Below the pieces are notes generated by a model. That model saw only the letters and a list, made by a program, of their open reading frames with translations. It was not told the DNA's origin and searched no databases. The position numbers and the translations under genes are program-made. This document shows positions 14,273 through 54,186 of a stretch of 64,000 nucleotides of DNA, in pieces. Numbering within the stretch: the stretch's first letter is position 1; each line of letters begins with the position of its first letter. The stretch is from contig NZ_JALGQH010000020.1 of assembly GCF_022810305.1 (NCBI RefSeq), positions 1 through 64,000 on the forward strand. The letters are read 5' to 3'. Source of the DNA: Rhodococcus sp. ARC_M6 (GTDB lineage: Bacteria; Actinomycetota; Actinomycetes; Mycobacteriales; Mycobacteriaceae).

Positions 14273-15970
14273 ATGCTCGGGAAACAAAGAAAAACTGACA
14301 GGAAAAAAGTGAACAATCCCGCTCGCCGAGATGGCACACCGGACCGTAACAACTCCCGCGACTCGCGTGGTGGCCGCAACGACGCCCCACGTGGTGGTCG
14401 TAGCGAAGCTCCCCGTGGAGCCCGTGGCGACAATTCGTACGGCGCACGCAGCGACGCCCCTCGTGGTGGACGCAGTGAAGCTCCCCGCGGAGCTCGCAGC
14501 GACAATTCCTACGGATCGCGCAATGACGCACCGCGCGGTGCACGCAGCGAAGCCCCTCGTGGTGGACGTAGCGAAAACACCTACGGATCGCGCAATGATG
14601 CTCCCCGCGGAGCCCGTGGCGACAATTCGTACGGTGCACGCAGCGAAGCCCCTCGTGGTGGACGTAGCGAAAACACCTACGGATCACGTGGTGACGCTCC
14701 CCGCGGAGCGCGCTCTGACGCTCCTCGTGGAGGACGTTCAGATGCTCCCCGTGGCGCACGCTCTGATGCACCCCGTGGTGGACGCGACAATTCGTACAAC
14801 GCACGCAGTGAAGCTCCCCGTGGTCGCTTTGATGCGCCTCGCGGAGCTCGTAGCGAAGCCCCCCGTGGCGGTCGCTCCAACACGCCGCGCTCTGACGACC
14901 GTCGCACTCCTCGTGCCGATGACCGTCGCACTCCCCACGTCGACGTTCGTCGCGCACCGTACGGAACGCGCCCGGACGATCGCAACGCTCCCCGTGAAGA
15001 GCAGCGTCCCGCGGCTCCTCGTGGCGGTGCCTGGTCGAATGCGCCGCGCGGATCCAAGTTCGACGGACCTCCGCGCAAGCGTCCGGCAGCGCCGACGCCG
15101 CCGGCAGTCAACAAGCACGGCAAGGTGAAGTCTGAAAAGCCGCAGCGCGCAGTCACCCAGAACCCGTTGGTATCCAACGCAAAGCCTGCTCGTCATCAGC
15201 ACGCCGAGGTCGGGCAGCAGGACGGCCCGCCCAAGGGTGATGGCGTCCGCTTGCAGAAGGTGCTGGCTCAGGCCGGTGTCGCTTCGCGTCGTGCAGCCGA
15301 AGAGCTGATCGACCAGGGCCGTGTCGAGGTCGACGGTCGCATCGTTCGTGAGCAGGGTCTGCGCGTCGACCCCGAGAACGCGGTTGTTCGCGTCGACGGT
15401 GTTCGCGTCGTCGTCCAGAAGGACCTCGTCTACTTGGCAATGAACAAGCCGCGTGGATGGCAGTGCACCATGTCCGACGACCTCGGTCGCCCGTGCGTCG
15501 GTGACATCGTCTCCGAGCGCGTCCAGTCGGGTCAGCGTCTCTTCCACGTCGGACGTCTCGATGCGGATACCGAAGGCTTGCTTCTCCTCACCAACGACGG
15601 CGATCTGGCTCACCGCCTGATGCACCCGTCGTTCGAGGTCCCGAAGACGTACCTCGCGACGGTTCACGGCGTGCTCGAGCGCAGCACCGCCAAGCAGCTA
15701 CGTGAGGGTGTCACCCTCGATGACGGTCCGGCCAAGGTCGACTTGGTTACCGTCCTCGAGATCAACGAGGGCAAGACCCTCGTCAAGCTTGTTCTGCACG
15801 AAGGCCGCAAGCACATCGTCCGTCGTCTCCTCGATTCCGTCGGCCACCCCGTGGTCCGTCTGGTTCGTACCAACGTCGGAGTTGTCTCCCTTGGCGATCA
15901 GCGTCCGGGAACGCAGCGCGTCCTCGGTCGTAGCGAGGTCGGTGGGCTGTACGAGGCGGTCGGCCTGTGA
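14273..15970 (+). CDS. rluB: RluB-type pseudouridine synthase with octapeptide-repeat N-terminus
   Basis: 565 aa, about twice the usual ~250 aa. The last ~240 residues are a standard RsuA/RluB enzyme: S4 domain from about residue 324 ('[22 protein letters not shown]') and a synthase domain with catalytic D430 in '[18 protein letters not shown]'. It would isomerise a uridine in 23S rRNA helix 89/90 or a related site. Residues ~37-250 consist of at least 16 copies of an APRG-(G/A)-R-(S/G)-(D/E) octad, with interspersed NSYGxR spacers, and look disordered and strongly basic. The start is ATG 14273; GTG 14309 is an alternative that keeps the repeats. The stop overlaps cmk by 4 nt. Confidence 0.93.
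14375..14890 (+). repeat. in-frame coding repeats (APRGxRxx octads) in rluB
   Basis: The 24-nt unit coding for APRG(G/A)R(S/G)(D/E) recurs about 16 times, partly as 45-51-nt composite units with a spacer encoding NSYGxR or NTYGxR. Sequence between units is close to identical in places (for example CCCCTCGTGGTGGACG occurs repeatedly), which points to recent expansion by slippage or unequal crossing-over. Degenerate R-rich units continue to about 15070. Expect copy-number variation between strains and possible assembly trouble. Confidence 0.9.
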
Positions 15971-18187: not shown

Positions 18188-18264
<77 letters not shown>

Positions 18265-18359: not shown

Positions 18360-18737
18360 ATGAATTCGCAAGATCTGCTCGGGCTTACCGTTTCTCTGTC
18401 GGGTGGGACAGCGTTGCTGGTCGTCGCAGTGGTCCTGGTGCAACGGATTGTCGGTGACACCCCGAACGAGTTGGTGGGGATTCGGACGCGCGCAACGATG
18501 TCGAGTCCTGCGGCGTGGCAGTTGGCGCACCGGACTGCGGCGCCTGCGCTGCGACGTACATCGCGAATGGCGTTGGCTGGGTTAGCGATACAGCTGGTCA
18601 TCGGGTTGTGGTGGGGATTCGGCGCTCCGGCATCCGCGCTGTTCTCGATAATCGTGTTCGTCGTAGTGACGGGGATGTTGGTGCACGCATCACTTCTCGG
18701 GGACCGGGCTGCCAAAAACTTTCAGGCCGGAAGGTAG
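18360..18737 (+). CDS. SdpI-like membrane protein
   Basis: 125 aa. Three hydrophobic segments (about 8-28, 70-90 and 95-115 from ATG 18360) surround the motif 'NELVGIRTRAT...AWQLAHRTAA', which resembles the SdpI/YhfL family signature (GIRTxxT followed by WxxxHR). SdpI of Bacillus is an immunity protein against the SdpC toxin, but many family members have no known role. ATG 18360 is preferred since GGAGGG at 18344-18349 is about 10 nt upstream; ATG 18351 lies too close to it. No SdpC-like partner is visible nearby. Confidence 0.8.
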   Translation: MNSQDLLGLTVSLSGGTALLVVAVVLVQRIVGDTPNELVGIRTRATMSSPAAWQLAHRTAAPALRRTSRMALAGLAIQLVIGLWWGFGAPASALFSIIVFVVVTGMLVHASLLGDRAAKNFQAGR

Positions 18738-18877
18738 TTGGTCTACTAGCGTGGCCGTTAAACGAGATCGACTTAGCGTCAGTCAGATGGAGTGCCTCGA
18801 TCCGCAGCGGATGCTTTCAACAGTCGGTGATGTCGTTTAGCCAATTACTGGACTGAATGGTCTGGTTTGATTGTTTA

Positions 18878-19335
18878 ATGCGGCGTACCGATGCAGTTCT
18901 AGCAATCCCAGTAATCTTATTTGTGGCGTCGTGCGCCTCGAATCGAGATAGCGGAGTCGAAACCGTCGACGTTGCCGCGCGAGTTTCGTCAGAAGTAGCG
19001 ATGTCGGCGGTGTCGACAGAGGCTACTCGGTCGAGGATCGCAGGGAACGCCGACTACTGCTCCGTGGGGGACGGATGCCAGCTGCATTTTGTCACCGCTT
19101 TGAGGCCGTGGGGCGCCCATACTACGTGCAATTCGTGAACCCGAAGGATCGAGCCAACCTGGGCCCGTGCACGTACGGTGAAGCGCTGACACAAGAGGAG
19201 TTCACCGAACTTGATCTCGAACGGCAATGCGTACTTGCCGATGATGCGTCCATCGCGCTGCGTGGCGGAACAGTTTCGTACTACGCCGATAAAAGCTCTG
19301 GCAGGGTAGCTGCTGCGGAGGAACAGTGTGGTTAA
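18878..19335 (+). pseudogene. lipoprotein gene, apparently frameshifted
   Basis: The first frame (18878-19138) encodes a signal peptide with lipobox 'FVASC' (Cys19), a Ser/Thr/Ala-rich linker and 'DYCSVGDGCQLHFVT'. It then stops shortly after reading 'RPWGAHTTCNS'. A second frame, open from 19075 to 19335, continues with a soluble domain ('RPYYVQFVNPKDRANLGPCTYGEAL ... EEQCG') that lacks any secretion signal but is rich in cysteines like a secreted domain. The simplest reading is one secreted lipoprotein broken by a single-base indel between about 19085 and 19120. Two overlapping genes, or a sequencing error, are alternatives. Function unknown. Confidence 0.5.
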
Positions 19336-19468
19336 TAGTTCGAGGCGAACGCACTCTCTAGCTATTCTCGCTTAGCGCGGTGCCAAAATCTTCCACGTGG
19401 TCTGTTTTGTCGGCGTAGCGCGTTAGGGTGTGACCAAATAGGGGTTCGGGGATCAAGGGGAGTGGAAG

Positions 19469-20737
19469 ATGGCCAAGCGGCGCGGATTCTTTGCTGAGAT
19501 GCAATATCAGGCTCGACTGAACGAGCAACGTCAACGTCAGCAGGAACGGGCTTCGGCTCAAGCGCACGCTCGTGCGGTGCGCGAGGCGGATCGATCCCGT
19601 CGGGAGTGGGAACGTGCACGCACTGCTGACGCGCGTCACACCGCGGCGATGTCGGCCTACAACGCGAAAGAACAGGCGCGTCTCCACCACGAAGCACGAC
19701 TGGCGGAGGTCGAACTCCTCAATGCAGAGTTAGCTGAAAAGCTCGAGTCGATCGATGGCATTCTCGCCGCCACACTCGATGTTGACGATTATGTCGATCT
19801 CGAATTGCTCCGCCAGAAGCTCGAACATCCGCCGTTCGACCGGCCGGATCTGACGGCAGTAACTCCGATTCAGGATTTGCTGCCGTTCCCCCCCGAACCG
19901 GTGTACATCGAGCCTCCGGCACCCGTGGGGCTCAGCTCCATGCTGGGCGGGAGGAAGCGACACGCCGCAGCGATTGCGGATGCCCAGACGGCGCATTGGC
20001 AGCAGAGACAGGGCTGGGAATATGCAGTGGCGCAACGCAATGAGGCGCAGCACCGTAGCGAGGTGGCGCATCGAGACATGGAAGCGCGTCGTATGCAGAA
20101 CCTGGTAGCCGCGCAGGCGACCTACGAAGCTGAGTGCGTTCACCGCCGTACCGAGGTTTTTGCCGCGAATGTTCGTCTCGAAAAACTTATGATGGGTTTG
20201 CAAGACCGAAAGCCGGATGCGTTAGAAGAGTACGTATCGATAGTGCTCGGCAATTCGGTATATCCGGACTGCTTCGAGGTGGAACATGATTTTCAGTTCA
20301 ATGGGGTCGAACGAGAGTTGACCTTGATGGTGATCGTGCCGCACCCAGAAGCGTTGCCGTCAGAGAAAGCGTTCAAATACGTCAAGTCCAGTGACACGAT
20401 TTCAAGTACTCAACTGCCGGTGAAGGCCCGTAAGGATCGCTATGCCGCTGCAGTATCACAGGTCGCGATCCGCACTGCGCATGAGATATTCGAGGCTGAT
20501 CGGGACGCGGTTGTGTCGACTCTGTCGATGACAGTCGGGGTGAGCACCGTTGATTCGGGGACCGGACTGGACACCTTTGTCCCCTTGGTGCAGCTAGCCA
20601 CCGATCGGGAGAGTTTTTCTTGTCTTGATCTTTCCCGTGTAGAGGCCCGCGCAACCCTTGATCACTTGAGGGCCGGTGTGTCGAAGAACCCGTACGACCT
20701 TGTTCCAGTTGGCAATGCATTCGGGGTGCGAGGCTGA
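19469..20737 (+). CDS. coiled-coil protein of unknown function, cassette gene A
   Basis: 422 aa, ATG preceded by GGGGAGTGGAAG. Residues ~5-85 and ~165-240 are long, charged, Q/R/A-rich coiled-coil segments separated by a proline-rich stretch (about 130-155, 'LLPFPPEPVYIEPPAPVGL'). The last ~170 residues form a folded alpha/beta domain ('FEVEHDFQFNGVERELTLMVIVPHPEALPSEKAFKYVKSSD', ending 'LRAGVSKNPYDLVPV'). From memory, this C-terminal domain resembles one found in actinobacterial proteins loosely annotated as restriction endonucleases; I see no PD-(D/E)xK or other nuclease motif here. It starts a two-gene unit with the DUF4041/MUG113 gene 36 nt downstream. G+C looks lower than in the flanking core genes. 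Confidence 0.85.
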   Translation: MAKRRGFFAEMQYQARLNEQRQRQQERASAQAHARAVREADRSRREWERARTADARHTAAMSAYNAKEQARLHHEARLAEVELLNAELAEKLESIDGILAATLDVDDYVDLELLRQKLEHPPFDRPDLTAVTPIQDLLPFPPEPVYIEPPAPVGLSSMLGGRKRHAAAIADAQTAHWQQRQGWEYAVAQRNEAQHRSEVAHRDMEARRMQNLVAAQATYEAECVHRRTEVFAANVRLEKLMMGLQDRKPDALEEYVSIVLGNSVYPDCFEVEHDFQFNGVERELTLMVIVPHPEALPSEKAFKYVKSSDTISSTQLPVKARKDRYAAAVSQVAIRTAHEIFEADRDAVVSTLSMTVGVSTVDSGTGLDTFVPLVQLATDRESFSCLDLSRVEARATLDHLRAGVSKNPYDLVPVGNAFGVRG

Positions 20738-20773
20738 TGCCGATTCTCGGTCGAAGGTCAGCTGGTAGCGGTT

Positions 20774-21997
20774 GTGAATGATCCGAATGTGACGATCCGG
20801 GCGTTGCGTACGGCTCTGGTAGCCAAGGAGCGCGAGCTTAACTCCCTGCTTGATAGTCTCGCCGAAGTAACCAGGGAACGTGATAGTGCAATCCGCGACG
20901 CTACGGCTGCAAGCATTGCGGTGGCAACTCGCATGTTGGTGACACCAGATGGAGTTGTCGAAACAGATGACCGTTTGGTGCTGCAGGAAGTGGGCATCTA
21001 TACCTACCAACACCCTTTGCAGAACGCAGAACAGTATAGGGAACGGCTAGGAGAGATTCGGGACCAGGTAAAGGCATCAATCACGTCGGGTTCGGCAATC
21101 ATTGCCGCGGACATGTTCAGCTTCAACAACTCTTTGGCCAAGGGCCGAAAGATGACAGCAGATCTATCGAAGTTGATGCTCCGCGCATACAACGCTGAGG
21201 CCGAGAACTGTGTGCGGACGATGAAAGCTGGCAATCTCACGACTGCAGTGAGTCGACTGCAGAAGGCATCCGCGGCCATCGCCAAACTCGGCACCATGAT
21301 GGAAATGCACGTTGCCGAGGATTATCACGGCCTGCGTGTCGCAGAGTTAGAGCTGACAGCAGACTATTTGATGAAGGTGCAAGAAGAGAAGCTTGCTCAA
21401 CGTGAGGAACGTGAACGACTGCGTGAGGAACGCAAAGTCGAGCAGGAGTTGGCCGCGCAGAGAGAGAAACTCGCCAAAGAACGGTCCCACTACCAAAACG
21501 TTCTCGACTCTCTGGGTGACCGGAATGACCATGAGGCAGGTCGGATTCGAGAGAAGTTGGCTCAGGTTGAGTCTGCAATTGAGCAAAACGACTATCGACG
21601 AGCAAACATTCGTGCAGGTTATGTCTATGTCATCAGCAACCAGGGCGCGTTCGGCCCGAATGTTGTCAAGATCGGGATGACTCGAAGACTTGAACCGATG
21701 GACCGGGTCAAAGAGCTTGGCAGCGCGTCAGTGCCATTCCCGTTTGATGTACATGCCTTGTATTTTTCCGACGATGCGGTCAGTCTTGAAGCAGCGCTAC
21801 ATGCTTCATTTACAACGAGGCGACTCAATCATGCCAACTTACGGCGCGAGTTCTTCTTTGCACGGCCGTCCCAAGTGCGGACGGTACTCGCCCAACAAGT
21901 TGGGAATCTCATGGAATATGCCGAGGAACCCGACGCGACTCAGTACTTTCAGAGTCGCGGAAAGTGGCCGCAGGAGATTGCGTCGCATTGGAGCTAG
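20774..21997 (+). CDS. DUF4041/MUG113 GIY-YIG-like protein, cassette gene B
   Basis: 407 aa, GTG start. Residues ~5-45 form a short coiled coil; ~50-215 match my memory of DUF4041 ('ISLGSAIIAADMF'-like region, 'AYNAEAENCVRTMKAGN'); ~195-275 is a strong charged coiled coil. From residue ~282 there is a MUG113/T5orf172-type GIY-YIG-related domain: 'GYVYVISN', 'VVKIGMTRR', 'DRVKELG', 'LEAALHASF' and 'RREFFF'. Members occur in phages, mobile islands and defence neighbourhoods, and nuclease activity is expected but rarely shown. Pairing with gene A and the tRNA-proximal location suggest a nucleic-acid-targeting defence or conflict module; that is inference. One 60-nt sample (21061-21120) is 33/60 G+C, against 40/60 in a pyrG sample (9241-9300). 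Confidence 0.85.
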   Translation: MNDPNVTIRALRTALVAKERELNSLLDSLAEVTRERDSAIRDATAASIAVATRMLVTPDGVVETDDRLVLQEVGIYTYQHPLQNAEQYRERLGEIRDQVKASITSGSAIIAADMFSFNNSLAKGRKMTADLSKLMLRAYNAEAENCVRTMKAGNLTTAVSRLQKASAAIAKLGTMMEMHVAEDYHGLRVAELELTADYLMKVQEEKLAQREERERLREERKVEQELAAQREKLAKERSHYQNVLDSLGDRNDHEAGRIREKLAQVESAIEQNDYRRANIRAGYVYVISNQGAFGPNVVKIGMTRRLEPMDRVKELGSASVPFPFDVHALYFSDDAVSLEAALHASFTTRRLNHANLRREFFFARPSQVRTVLAQQVGNLMEYAEEPDATQYFQSRGKWPQEIASHWS

Positions 21998-22061
21998 CGA
22001 TGTCCCGCAGTGCCACATTGCCTGGGCAACCGCGATACCTGCCTCGTCGGCCGCCGGCGTC

Positions 22062-22163
22062 ATGCGTAAGTCCGTGCACTATCTCTCGCCGACTCAGTTC
22101 GCCGAGAGAATCGGCGAGCAGTTCGACGCGTTGTCGAAGTTCAAGGTGCGGCACCCGATGTGA
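22062..22163 (+). pseudogene. possible remnant of an HTH/excisionase-like gene
   Basis: The frame encodes 'MRKSVHYLSPTQFAERIGEQ' and 'DALSKFKVRHPM' before a stop. The pattern YLSPTQFAERIG...ALSKFK is close to the N-terminal helix-turn-helix of small AlpA/excisionase-like proteins of actinobacterial mobile elements. In another frame the same DNA then reads 'PDVIVGLGR', which is what such proteins often have next, so a one-base shift is suspected. Too short to be certain. Confidence 0.3.
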
Positions 22164-22199
22164 TCGTGGGGCTCGGACGGATCAGCCCGGTAGCCGGAC

Positions 22200-22643: not shown

Positions 22644-25600
22644 ATGGTCGAAGACGATCAACTCCACACGCGTCGCGATCTGCTTCCATTCATCGTGGAT
22701 GAGCTGGGAGCGGCGGGATTCGACGACGCGCGGGAGATCGGGCGCGGTGGTTTCGGTGTTGTCTACCGCTGCACCCAGCTCGGGCTTGACCGCACAGTGG
22801 CGGTGAAGGTACTGACCGCTGACTTGGACGAGGAAAACCGGGCACGTTTTTTCCGGGAACAGCGGGCAATGGGGCGCTTGACCGGCCACCCGAACATCGT
22901 GGGCGTTTTGGAAGTCGGTGTCACCGACACCGGGCGCCCCTACCTGGTGATGCCGTACCAGTCGCACGGCTCAGTCGATGCCCGGATCCGCCGGCAGGGG
23001 CCGTTCTCCGTGGAGGAAGTACTCCGGCTCGGGGTGAAGATGGCAGGCGCGCTCGAGACGGCGCACTTGCTCGGCATTCTGCATCGCGACGTCAAACCGG
23101 CAAACATTCTGCTTACCGACTACGGTGAACCGGCTCTGACAGATTTCGGGATCGCGCACATCGCAGACGGTTTCAAGACTGCGACCGGAACGGTCACGGG
23201 TTCGCCTGCCTTCACTGCGCCGGAGGTACTCGGCGGTGAGCCGCCGAGTACGGCCTCAGATGTCTACGGGCTCGGAGCCACCTTGTTCAGCGTGCTCACC
23301 GGTCACGCGGCATTCGAGCGCCGCAGCGGCGAGCAGGTTGTGGCCCAATTTTTGCGGATCACCGCACAACAGGTGCCCGACTTGCGGGAGAACGGCTTTC
23401 CCGACGACGTATGTGGGGTCGTGGAGAAGGCAATGTCCCGAGACCCAGCCGACCGACAATCTGCGTCGGCGCTGGGCGAGGACCTGCGGCAACTTCAGTT
23501 CCGCCACGGGTTCCCCGTCGATGAGATGGCGCTGCGCGCCGAACACGAAGTTGAACGGCAGGATCCACAACCACCGTCGCGAAGATGGAGTCCGCCTACC
23601 TCACCGTCCGGTCAGGGAGTCGAGAGAAACTTGCCGCTGGAGCTGACCAGCTTCGTTGGCCGGCGTGCTGAGCTGGCCGAGGCGAAGAACTTGTTGTCGG
23701 TGTCTCGTCTGGTCACCTTGACCGGAATCGGTGGTGTTGGCAAGACACGTCTCGCGTTGCAGGTTGCGGCGAAGGCGCAGAGGGACTTTGCCGACGGCGT
23801 ATGGCTGGTCGAGTTGGGCGAGCTGCACGAAGAGCCGCTTGTGGTGGTCGCGGTGGCGGCCGCACTCGGAGTGCGCGACCAGTCGGCACGGCCGTTGCAG
23901 GACATTGTGGTGGAGTTTCTGGCCACTCGAACGTTATTGCTGGTCCTCGACAACTGTGAGCAGGTCGTTGATGCGGTAGCCGGTCTAGTCGAAGCGCTGC
24001 TGCGAGCGTGCCCACAGTTGAAAATCCTGACGACCACGCGCGAGCCTCTCGGGATTGGCGGGGAATCCGTACTGCGGGTGTCTCCGTTGGCGGTCCCCGA
24101 TCCTGACCAAGAGCCATCGCTCCGTGTGTTGCCCCGATACGACGCGGTGACGTTGTTCGTCGAACGGGCCGCTGCCGCGGTGCCGGGATTCGAACTCACC
24201 GAAGAGAACAGGGCTGTGGTCACCCGGATTTGCCAGCGGCTGGACGGGCTGCCACTGGCGATCGAGTTGGCGGCGGCGAGGTTGCGGGCTATGTCGCCCG
24301 AACAGATCTTGGAGCGGCTCGACGATCGCTATGCGCTTCTGACCCGAGGTAGCCGGGCTGCGCCCACCCGGCAGCAGACCCTGCGATGGAGTATCGACTG
24401 GAGCTACGACCTGTGTACTGCCGAAGAACAGCAGCTGTGGGGCAGGCTGGCTGTGTTCGCGGGAAGTTTCGAACTCGATGCGGCGGAGGAGGTCTGCGGC
24501 GTCGACGCGGCGCAGGAGGGCCTGCTGGACTCGCTGAGCTCACTGGTGGACAAATCGATCCTGATCCGAGAGGAGTTCGACACCGCGGTCCACTTCCGAT
24601 TGCTCGAGACACTTCGCGATTACGGACGGGAGAAAATCCAGCAGGCCGGTGAGTATGAGGTGTTCCGCGGTCGACACCTGGACTGGTACCGGCAGTTGGC
24701 GCTTGACGCGGAAGCCGGATGGATCAGCCCGAGGCAACTCGAGTGGATTGATCGTCTCGATCGGGAGCTGCCGAATATGCGGGAAGCGCTGGAATACGGC
24801 CTCTCCGCCGATGAATCGGGCGTCCAGGCCGGCCTGCAGATGGCTACCGCGCTGTATCCCTTCTCGCTGACCCGCGGTCTGTACAGCGAGAGCCGACATT
24901 GGCTCGACAGTTTCCTCGCCCGCGATGCCGGAAAGCCGACATCGGGACGCATTCGAGCGATCCACGCGGACAGTCTGTTGGCAGCAGTGCAGGGCGACCT
25001 ACTGGCAGCGACTGCCCTGATGGAGGAGGGACGCGCGCTTGCTGCTCAGCTCACCGACCCCCTTGCCCAAGCACTGGTCGACCATGCCGACGGCATGCTG
25101 GCGCTGTATCGGGACGATCTACCGCGCGCAGTCTCCCGCTTGGAAAACGCTCTGGAGGTGTTCGACGCACGTGGTGATCTCACACGTGAAGTGAGCGTAT
25201 TGCAGATACTCGGGTTGGTCTACGAACTGCTCGGCGAATCGCAGCGGTCGATTGGCTGTTACGAAAAGGCGCTCGCAATCACCGAATCTCACGGGGAATC
25301 GGTGTATCACTCCTACACGCTGTGGGCCATGAGCGTTGCGATGTGGCGACAGGGTGACCAGGGGAGAGCCGTTGGGCTGCTCGAGCAGGCGCTACAGCTC
25401 ACCGAGCAGGTCAATGATCCGCTCACCTGCGCGGCGTGCCTGGAGGTGTTGGCGTGGATTGCTGCGGCAGAGGGGAATTCGCGGCGTGCCGCCGTACTGA
25501 TAGGCGCCGCGGAAGAGTTGGGGCACTCCGTAGGCAGCGTCACGATCGTATTCCCCACTCTGCAGCCGTACCAGGAGGAATGCGAAGCGTTGACGCGGCA

Positions 25601-25937
25601 AACCCTCGGCGAGAGGGCATTCGGGGCGGCCCGCAGACAGGGACGGCTCATGGGTATGGATGGGGCAGTCGCGTATGCGCTCGGCCGGCAATCCCCGGAC
25701 CCGACTCGCACGGCTGGTCAGTCAGGGGACTTGACCAAGCGTGAGCGTGAGGTTGCGGACCTCGTCGCTCAGGGTCTCACCAACAAACAGATCGCGGCCA
25801 AATTGGTGATCTCGCTACGCACCGCGCAGGGCCATGTGGAGCACGTCCTCACAAAACTTGGTTTCACTTCGCGCGCGCAGATCGCTGCCTGGGTGGTCGA
25901 GCAGTCCCAGAACGAGCCCCGTGGACCGGGCGAGTAG
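22644..25937 (+). CDS. Ser/Thr kinase / NB-ARC ATPase / TPR / LuxR regulator (PknK-like)
   Basis: 1097 aa, four modules. (1) Ser/Thr kinase, ~28-290: glycine loop GRGGFGVV, K55, HRDVKPAN with D149, DFG with D167, APE. (2) STAND/NB-ARC ATPase from ~330: P-loop GIGGVGKT at 361-368, 'LLLVLDNCE', 'GLPLAIELAA'. (3) TPR-like helical repeats, ~690-990. (4) LuxR-type HTH from ~1030 ('LTKREREVADLVAQGLTNKQIAAKL'). The kinase half strongly resembles mycobacterial PknK, but PknK has a MalT-like ATPase, so this is a related design, not a strict orthologue. It is probably cytoplasmic, with phosphorylation and ligand or partner sensing controlling DNA binding. ATG 22644 has only a weak ribosome site. Confidence 0.9.
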   Translation: MVEDDQLHTRRDLLPFIVDELGAAGFDDAREIGRGGFGVVYRCTQLGLDRTVAVKVLTADLDEENRARFFREQRAMGRLTGHPNIVGVLEVGVTDTGRPYLVMPYQSHGSVDARIRRQGPFSVEEVLRLGVKMAGALETAHLLGILHRDVKPANILLTDYGEPALTDFGIAHIADGFKTATGTVTGSPAFTAPEVLGGEPPSTASDVYGLGATLFSVLTGHAAFERRSGEQVVAQFLRITAQQVPDLRENGFPDDVCGVVEKAMSRDPADRQSASALGEDLRQLQFRHGFPVDEMALRAEHEVERQDPQPPSRRWSPPTSPSGQGVERNLPLELTSFVGRRAELAEAKNLLSVSRLVTLTGIGGVGKTRLALQVAAKAQRDFADGVWLVELGELHEEPLVVVAVAAALGVRDQSARPLQDIVVEFLATRTLLLVLDNCEQVVDAVAGLVEALLRACPQLKILTTTREPLGIGGESVLRVSPLAVPDPDQEPSLRVLPRYDAVTLFVERAAAAVPGFELTEENRAVVTRICQRLDGLPLAIELAAARLRAMSPEQILERLDDRYALLTRGSRAAPTRQQTLRWSIDWSYDLCTAEEQQLWGRLAVFAGSFELDAAEEVCGVDAAQEGLLDSLSSLVDKSILIREEFDTAVHFRLLETLRDYGREKIQQAGEYEVFRGRHLDWYRQLALDAEAGWISPRQLEWIDRLDRELPNMREALEYGLSADESGVQAGLQMATALYPFSLTRGLYSESRHWLDSFLARDAGKPTSGRIRAIHADSLLAAVQGDLLAATALMEEGRALAAQLTDPLAQALVDHADGMLALYRDDLPRAVSRLENALEVFDARGDLTREVSVLQILGLVYELLGESQRSIGCYEKALAITESHGESVYHSYTLWAMSVAMWRQGDQGRAVGLLEQALQLTEQVNDPLTCAACLEVLAWIAAAEGNSRRAAVLIGAAEELGHSVGSVTIVFPTLQPYQEECEALTRQTLGERAFGAARRQGRLMGMDGAVAYALGRQSPDPTRTAGQSGDLTKREREVADLVAQGLTNKQIAAKLVISLRTAQGHVEHVLTKLGFTSRAQIAAWVVEQSQNEPRGPGE

Positions 25938-26032
25938 TCGCGGAAAAGCTGCACGGTCAATATTGATAAACTCACCTCCGGCATTCGCGGGTATCCGTGG
26001 ATGATGTCGAAGCCCTAAGAGGAGTTAGTACC

Positions 26033-50656: not shown

Positions 50657-50784
50657 GAGTGTCCGAGGGGGGACTTGAACCCCCACGTCCGTTAATAGGA
50701 CACTAGCACCTCAAGCTAGCGCGTCTGCCATTCCGCCACTCGGACTCGGCACCGATTTCGCGGTGCAGGGAAAGAGTATCCGAT
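50657..50784. repeat. 128-bp direct repeat, left copy (contains tRNA-Leu)
   Basis: Matches 54059-54186 with three mismatches, all outside the tRNA. It includes the tRNA and the upstream flank with the presumed -10 element. A more weakly matching tail (CCCAAATCGC) continues to about 50807. The two copies border the MHS/NadX/IclR islet. Confidence 0.9.
50660..50745 (-). tRNA. tRNA-Leu (anticodon GAG), copy 1
   Basis: 86 nt with the long class-II variable arm. Acceptor GTCCGAG/CTCGGAC, anticodon stem GCTAGC/GCTAGT, loop TTGAGGT giving anticodon GAG, T-arm GGTTCAAGTCC. CCA is not encoded. It is identical over all 86 nt to the copy at 54062-54147. A promoter-like TTGGGA/GATACT pair lies upstream. 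Confidence 0.96.
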
Positions 50785-54058: not shown

Positions 54059-54186
54059 GAGTGTCCGAGGGGGGACTTGAACCCCCACGTCCGTTAATAG
54101 GACACTAGCACCTCAAGCTAGCGCGTCTGCCATTCCGCCACTCGGACTCGGCCCCGATTTCTCGGTGCTGGGAAAGAGTATCCGAT
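54059..54186. repeat. 128-bp direct repeat, right copy (contains tRNA-Leu)
   Basis: Right-hand partner of 50657-50784 (offset 3402 nt, three mismatches in the flank). Same orientation, so recombination between the copies would delete the islet between them. Confidence 0.9.
54062..54147 (-). tRNA. tRNA-Leu (anticodon GAG), copy 2
   Basis: Identical in all 86 positions to the copy at 50660-50745, with the same promoter-like upstream sequence in slightly diverged form. Both copies look functional. Confidence 0.96.

Follow-up and report, generated by a model that had tools for sequence, protein, structure and literature searches.

A coiled-coil partner gene paired with a SNIPE/PD-lambda-1 homologue in Rhodococcus sp. 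ARC_M6: a candidate two-component variant of a phage defence nuclease

The defence protein PD-lambda-1 was found by functional selection in Escherichia coli (PMC9519451) and was later renamed SNIPE (PMC13190303). SNIPE is a single-gene, membrane-bound nuclease that defends against siphoviruses when their DNA is injected and that separates phage DNA from self by its position. In the E. coli protein the membrane anchor gives the self/non-self discrimination, the DUF4041 domain enhances DNA binding, with tape measure proteins as probable further binding partners, and mutation of the catalytic Glu414 abolishes defence (PMC13190303). Removal of the transmembrane segment makes the protein toxic in E. 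coli, as host DNA is then cut through its nuclease (PMC13190303). No partner gene for SNIPE appears in the available parts of this paper or of a review (PMC12904381), and a two-gene SNIPE was not found among the titles and abstract beginnings listed in searches of the open literature. Here we analyzed a stretch of 64,000 nt from Rhodococcus sp. ARC_M6 (contig NZ_JALGQH010000020.1, positions 1 to 64,000; in the following 'the window'), which carries a cassette of two genes on the forward (+) strand: gene A (422 aa, 19469..20737), a candidate coiled-coil partner or targeting subunit, and gene B (407 aa, GTG start, 20774..21997), a SNIPE/PD-lambda-1 homologue. A gap of 36 nt (20738-20773) separates them. 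An earlier first-pass annotation made from the letters alone had given both reading frames with the correct coordinates, strand, lengths and gap. With moderate confidence we favor the reading that the cassette is a two-component SNIPE variant, in which A would have a targeting or localisation role in trans and B would be the nuclease.

Gene B matched the PADLOC model PD-Lambda-1 over residues 56-395 (E = 3e-103) as well as PHROG 1847 (E = 1e-105). The Pfam domains DUF4041, MUG113 and T5orf172 were all found far above their cut-offs, as the first-pass annotation had expected: DUF4041 (PF13250, E = 5.5e-18) covers residues 133-188 (21170..21337, +) and the GIY-YIG-type T5orf172/MUG113 nuclease domain covers residues 282-373 (21617..21892, +). 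Taking a coliphage record annotated as PD-lambda-1 (L093; L and G numbers denote loci and genomes) as reference, we observed 33% identity over 339 aa. In this alignment Glu414 of E. coli SNIPE corresponds to Glu339 of gene B (codon at 21788..21790, +), a residue that is invariant across 22 B proteins from A–B pairs (alignment A2). Gene B therefore has in common with SNIPE the DUF4041 domain, a helical linker and a C-terminal GIY-YIG domain with the catalytic Glu, whereas it differs by the lack of an N-terminal transmembrane anchor, by a short coil near DUF4041 and by a constant upstream partner gene. Judged by hydropathy only, no transmembrane-like segment is present in gene B (highest averaged value 1.12, compared to 3.37 in the E. 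coli form). The short coil-like stretch, recognized by eye at about residues 8-40 (20795..20893, +), is parted by a linker from the DUF4041 core, at the place that a long stalk occupies in unpaired homologues. Published SNIPE homologues carry one transmembrane segment in 59%, two in 7% and none in 34% of cases, the last still being counted as members (PMC13190303), so that the missing anchor bars the canonical anatomy and not family membership. By its profile and residue matches, gene B is a member of the published SNIPE/PD-lambda-1 family of defence proteins, and the label 'undescribed' that the cassette had been given does not apply to this half of it (PMC13190303).

For gene A, AlphaFold2 models show a long helix 1 at residues 3-96 (19475..19756, +), a long helix 2 at residues 155-245 (19931..20203, +) and a C-terminal alpha/beta domain at about residues 249-415 (20213..20713, +), in agreement with the earlier description of two long coiled coils and a folded C-terminal domain. 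In the alignments, a conserved M(A/G)RRRGFFAE.Q.Q-like motif marks the start of helix 1. Fold searches with the C-terminal domain, which had been proposed as a check, returned no confident PDB match; a CamS-like C-terminal fold (3ib5, 2qx2) may be regarded as a tentative candidate. Residues 16-414 of gene A aligned to positions 8-380 of the 544 positions of the PADLOC model mREase_IV PDLC03663 (E = 4e-33), which describes a coiled coil, an alpha/beta region and an Mrr nuclease. The coiled-coil and alpha/beta part of this model is present in gene A (PADLOC; alignment with L003), but gene A stops where Mrr_cat starts and a GIY-YIG nuclease follows in the next gene instead. Pfam detected no nuclease domain in gene A, and since the Mrr_cat part is absent gene A is not filed as a member of mREase_IV PDLC03663. 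On the evidence of these alignments, gene A corresponds to the first ~400 aa of a type IV restriction family in PADLOC and lacks the Mrr nuclease of that family. Long relatives of A carried Mrr_cat in 12 of 12 proteins tested with Pfam, one of them partially; the long proteins L033, L035, L038, L040, L042 and L043 lay outside this test. The statement in the first-pass annotation that the C-terminal region of A occurs in actinobacterial restriction endonucleases thus proved right, the proteins being Mrr fusions. In a tree of A proteins (L026, L104 and L186 excluded; L184, L185 and L191 duplicate the genomes of the window, L088 and L089) the 29 stand-alone A sequences form one clade (support 100/100), 18 long proteins of the Mrr type fall outside, and the Mrr fusion L003 is the nearest outgroup (94/87). 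This tree, the root of which is not fixed, fits a loss of the Mrr domain together with the adoption of a SNIPE nuclease. As a separate observation, the A region in L039 and L041 (two genomes of one genus, g35, of the same class) continues into Mrr_cat and, after it, a TerD domain.

The PADLOC model that matches both gene A and its Mrr-fused homologues is filed as type IV methyl-directed, and this points to a different explanation of the cassette: a split modification-dependent (type IV-like) restriction system, in which A would read modified bases and B would be an exchanged nuclease that cuts modified phage DNA in the cytoplasm and not at injection. A GIY-YIG type IV enzyme, CMoRE, has been published (PMC12923530), and it couples a GIY-YIG nuclease to a sensing domain in phage defence, as the cassette may do. 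CMoRE, which we set apart by its description and not by its sequence, differs in being a single protein with the nuclease at its N-terminus (PMC12923530). However, the type IV label of the model may derive from the Mrr domain alone, the domain expected to read the modification does not confidently match a solved fold, and B keeps DUF4041 with the roles in DNA and probable tape measure binding described for SNIPE (PMC13190303). We consider this explanation unlikely and continue with the reading of A as a targeting partner of a SNIPE nuclease.

Next, we consider how regularly A and B occur together. A scan for A in a genome collection of 84,980 species gave 22 loci, and in 21 of them B is the next gene after A and has the same orientation; the remaining locus (L028) encodes an A–Mrr fusion. 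In 396 genomes of the phylum, 23 of which matched in the A search (the short matches G240, G249, G080, G193 and G224 were left unclassed), we found three full-length stand-alone A genes (G000, G364 and G368), each followed by B. Among plasmids a single record with full-length A was found (Kocuria rosea, A annotated as 'hypothetical protein'), again followed by B, and the viral contig IMGVR_UViG_2841536245_000005 (L104/L100) carries an A+B pair next to the gene of a phage integrase; A is here divided between two open reading frames (ORFs). Apart from L104, A is broken in the plasmid locus L026, and L004/L092 is a degraded pair. No B was observed near Mrr-fused or long A proteins (L031-L050, L003, L028, L097 and L101-L103) in the fetched stretches, which partly span only ~1-1.5 kb per side. 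Close relatives of A without Mrr are paired with one clade of B in all loci examined. The first-pass annotation had named a lack of pairs elsewhere as evidence that would speak against its proposal, and such pairs were found.

Since most of the 27 paired B proteins were collected through A, the set obtained by starting from B is the fairer test. Of 393 genomes of the class 36 matched B and gave 30 loci. In 8 of these A lies upstream, and in the other 22 there is no A within the fetched ~1.5 kb to either side; the split or partial matches G621, G692, G734, G593, G463 and G570, which gave no locus, were left out for A. Seven further full-length B from the phylum search (20 genomes matched, 13 with full-length B used) had no A in their wider loci. 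In a tree of the 37 B-first sequences the 8 paired B form one clade (support 100/97). The same was observed in a second tree with 67 B sequences (27 from pairs, 14 actinobacterial ones without A, 25 viral and 1 from an E. coli phage), where the paired B again form one clade (100/96); the viral sequences in it were sampled from 79, and viral relatives were taken as the best 80 of 499. Members of the paired clade come from many actinobacterial families and from one planctomycete (L020).

In 14 of 27 pairs a candidate in-frame start of B overlaps the stop codon of A by 1 or 4 nt, which suggests translational coupling. No third recurrent gene was found among 376 predicted genes clustered from 24 loci, the next clusters occurring in 3 loci. 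The distances between A proteins correlate with those between their B proteins (r = 0.77 for 27 pairs, a value reached by none of 2000 permutations; L027 and L187 excluded), although such a correlation is expected of a co-inherited pair, as of any old operon, and is no proof of contact. These data bear on the possibility that A and B are neighbours merely through shared travel on mobile DNA, each working alone. Such travel is visible in the insertion in the window (see below) and in the plasmid and provirus copies, and the many unpaired B presumably work alone. Still, we hold this explanation to be very improbable in view of the linkage, which in the sets examined has no exception within one B clade, of the overlap of stop and start codons and the absence of any other common neighbour, and of the long stalk, which is missing in 7 of the 8 paired B of the B-first set.

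The stalk was measured as the proline-free run adjoining the DUF4041 core, with a length of at least 47 residues and a coiled-coil-like appearance by eye. In the B-first set 27 of 29 unpaired B have a long stalk, but only one of the 8 paired B (Fisher p = 2.6e-5, a value that overstates independence, since the paired B are one clade and the loss of the stalk is therefore one event and not eight). In the larger set the proline-free run has a median of 21 residues in paired B (maximum 46) and of 74 in unpaired actinobacterial B (range 0-148). Transmembrane-like segments (hydropathy of at least 1.6) were found in none of the 27 paired B, in 1 of 14 unpaired actinobacterial B, in 9 of 79 viral B and in the E. 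coli form. The paired clade is hence marked by the loss of the stalk and not by the lack of an anchor. At the N-terminus a tryptophan/proline-rich (W/P) repeat with a loose linker occurs in 17 of 27 paired and 2 of 14 unpaired B; in the B-first set it was seen in 6 of the 8 paired B and in 7 of the 29 without A. As it is also present in unpaired B, the repeat is not specific to pairing, and B of the window and its Rhodococcus kin have the short coil in its place. We noted the repeat (RFNPPPGWPxPPxGWxPPxGWxPDPxWP-like) in B of L010-L027, L078 and L082, and also in L067-L070, L074, L076 and L077; Pfam found no domain on it in B of L010 and L012. Several other proteins match the B profile in the part of this repeat only, and unpaired actinobacterial SNIPE homologues with other N-terminal domains were seen as well, namely DUF4429 (L083) and DUF2510 (L086).

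An anchorless B recalls the toxicity of anchorless SNIPE in E. coli, which acts through the nuclease (PMC13190303). The cassette could on this ground be a toxin–antitoxin or abortive module, in which B would cut host DNA, A would neutralise it, and infection would free B so that the cell dies; A being encoded first and the frequent stop/start overlap would suit such an arrangement. Published SNIPE, however, is a direct defence in which infected cells are not lost, homologues of A are fused to a nuclease domain, a better fit to targeting than to inhibition, and other genomes retain a B that has neither A nor a clear membrane segment (13 of 14 unpaired actinobacterial B). We therefore regard a toxin–antitoxin module as improbable.

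We return to the reading in which A targets B. A would consist of a long helical hairpin and a C-terminal recognition domain, would form a complex with B and would restrain it away from the chromosome. On infection, A would guide B to the incoming DNA, either in response to an infection cue or by way of a membrane site, after which DUF4041 would contact the DNA and the GIY-YIG domain would cut it. In this way the arrangement of A and B would stand in for the membrane anchor of E. coli SNIPE and act against phage. What A would sense could be a signal from the membrane or from injection, but also modified DNA or a protein of the phage. A role of A in targeting rather than inhibition is argued for by the fusion of its family elsewhere to a nuclease of another fold, and B may need A because it has neither the anchor nor the stalk of E. 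coli SNIPE. As the stalk of paired B is short or missing, A may supply a stalk, rather than pair with the coil of B. The first-pass annotation had proposed a split nuclease with A as sensor or scaffold and B as effector; of this, the conserved unit, the candidate role of A and the nuclease nature of B are supported, while the novelty of B is not; the joining of A and B through their coiled coils, also part of that proposal, is a conjecture.

Several observations weigh against this reading, in addition to the limits given above for the distance correlation and for the single loss of the stalk. The enrichment of defence genes among the neighbours is weak, so that the neighborhood survey proposed earlier bore out the conserved pairing but this association only weakly. 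In viral B the proline-free run has a median of 59 residues and only 28 of 78 reach at least 60 (122 in E. coli), and the unpaired plasmid B of L098 and L099 score 0 and 3, which makes the contrast between paired and unpaired B weaker. An anchor is rare in unpaired actinobacterial B too, and a replacement of the anchor by A does not follow from its absence alone. No membrane segment was found in 21 A proteins, and the fold of the C-terminal domain of A points to no ligand. Finally, L090 and L091 contain distant A-like genes (26% identity) that have no B beside them and lack a long extension of the Mrr type, and they are thus exceptions to the pattern seen for A. The neighbours of these genes (L090 3878-5077, L091 3967-5043) look metabolic by eye, and the genes are possibly solitary regulators or remnants; the copy of the L090 gene in L005 gave no Pfam match.

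What appears to be new is the combination of A and B, together with the single clade of paired B and the exchange of a nuclease in cis for one in trans, whereas the family of B was known. More tentatively, we propose that the A family is a targeting module independent of the nuclease, acting in cis with Mrr and in trans with SNIPE, and that the cassette could be a two-component SNIPE that is soluble and responds to an infection cue of its own, in which localisation and self/non-self discrimination have been handed to A. A variant without anchor and stalk but with a fixed partner offers a ready test of what spares the host chromosome, and the fusion of the A region to an unrelated nuclease suggests an exchange of sensing and cutting parts between defence systems. 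Annotation by single genes misses half of the system, as PADLOC names only B (as PD-Lambda-1).

To place the cassette in its genome we compared it with related strains. A query from der to tRNA-Pro matched all 28 genomes of the genus, and the stretch to the right was compared in nine of them. In the sister species G003 (~94% identical) and G004 (91-93%) the blastn alignment stops at window position 18735 and is taken up again at 22170 and at 22165, respectively, with 35 and 31 other bases in place of 3,430 bp. Since the sisters lack these 3.4 kb, the cassette lies on an insertion (18736..22165, no strand), which blastn against the sister loci, the junctions and the GC content delimit. The remaining seven of the nine genomes align on the left side, two of them also with a right-hand gene that is ~70% identical and five on the left only. 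Between 80-bp stretches spanning both ends of the insertion we found no shared repeats of at least 8 bases. The GC content is 58.4% in gene A, 53.9% in gene B and 56.4% in the insertion against 61.8% in the rest of the window, consistent with the lower G+C noted in the first-pass annotation. The same annotation had put the cassette behind a tRNA with decayed mobile DNA on the far side. A tRNA-Pro(ggg) is indeed present to the left (18188..18264, +; ARAGORN), but the acquired DNA begins ~470 bp past it, because the stretch in between, with an SdpI-like gene, is common to the two sisters; decay on the far side was not borne out, as the fragment at 22041-22160 has no Pfam match. On the right the insertion is followed by a kinase/NB-ARC/LuxR gene (Pfam), likewise common to G003 and G004. 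Within the genus gene A has a match in two of the 28 genomes, that of the window and G006; in G006 the match is limited to the final 75 residues and gene B matches in three pieces (L092, G006:C5:124700-135000, a decayed copy). With a full-length A in 1 of 28 genomes the locus is accessory, neither universal nor syntenic in the genus, and the first-pass annotation had counted a universal and syntenic locus with a housekeeping phenotype as evidence against its proposal.

Some further features of the window were recorded. The left part of the insertion (18857-19335) holds two overlapping ORFs in different frames that by eye look like a broken lipoprotein gene; the second piece has no Pfam match. 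The right-hand neighbour (22644-25940) is an ORF of 1097 aa with a Ser/Thr kinase, an NB-ARC ATPase, tetratricopeptide repeats and a LuxR-type DNA-binding domain. At 14273-15100 an ORF resembling the pseudouridine synthase RluB (named by eye) opens with a long run of low-complexity repeats. A tRNA-Leu(gag) gene occurs twice on the minus strand (50659-50745 and 54061-54147); between the two copies lie 3.3 kb with a lower GC content (~56-60%), a possible second island.

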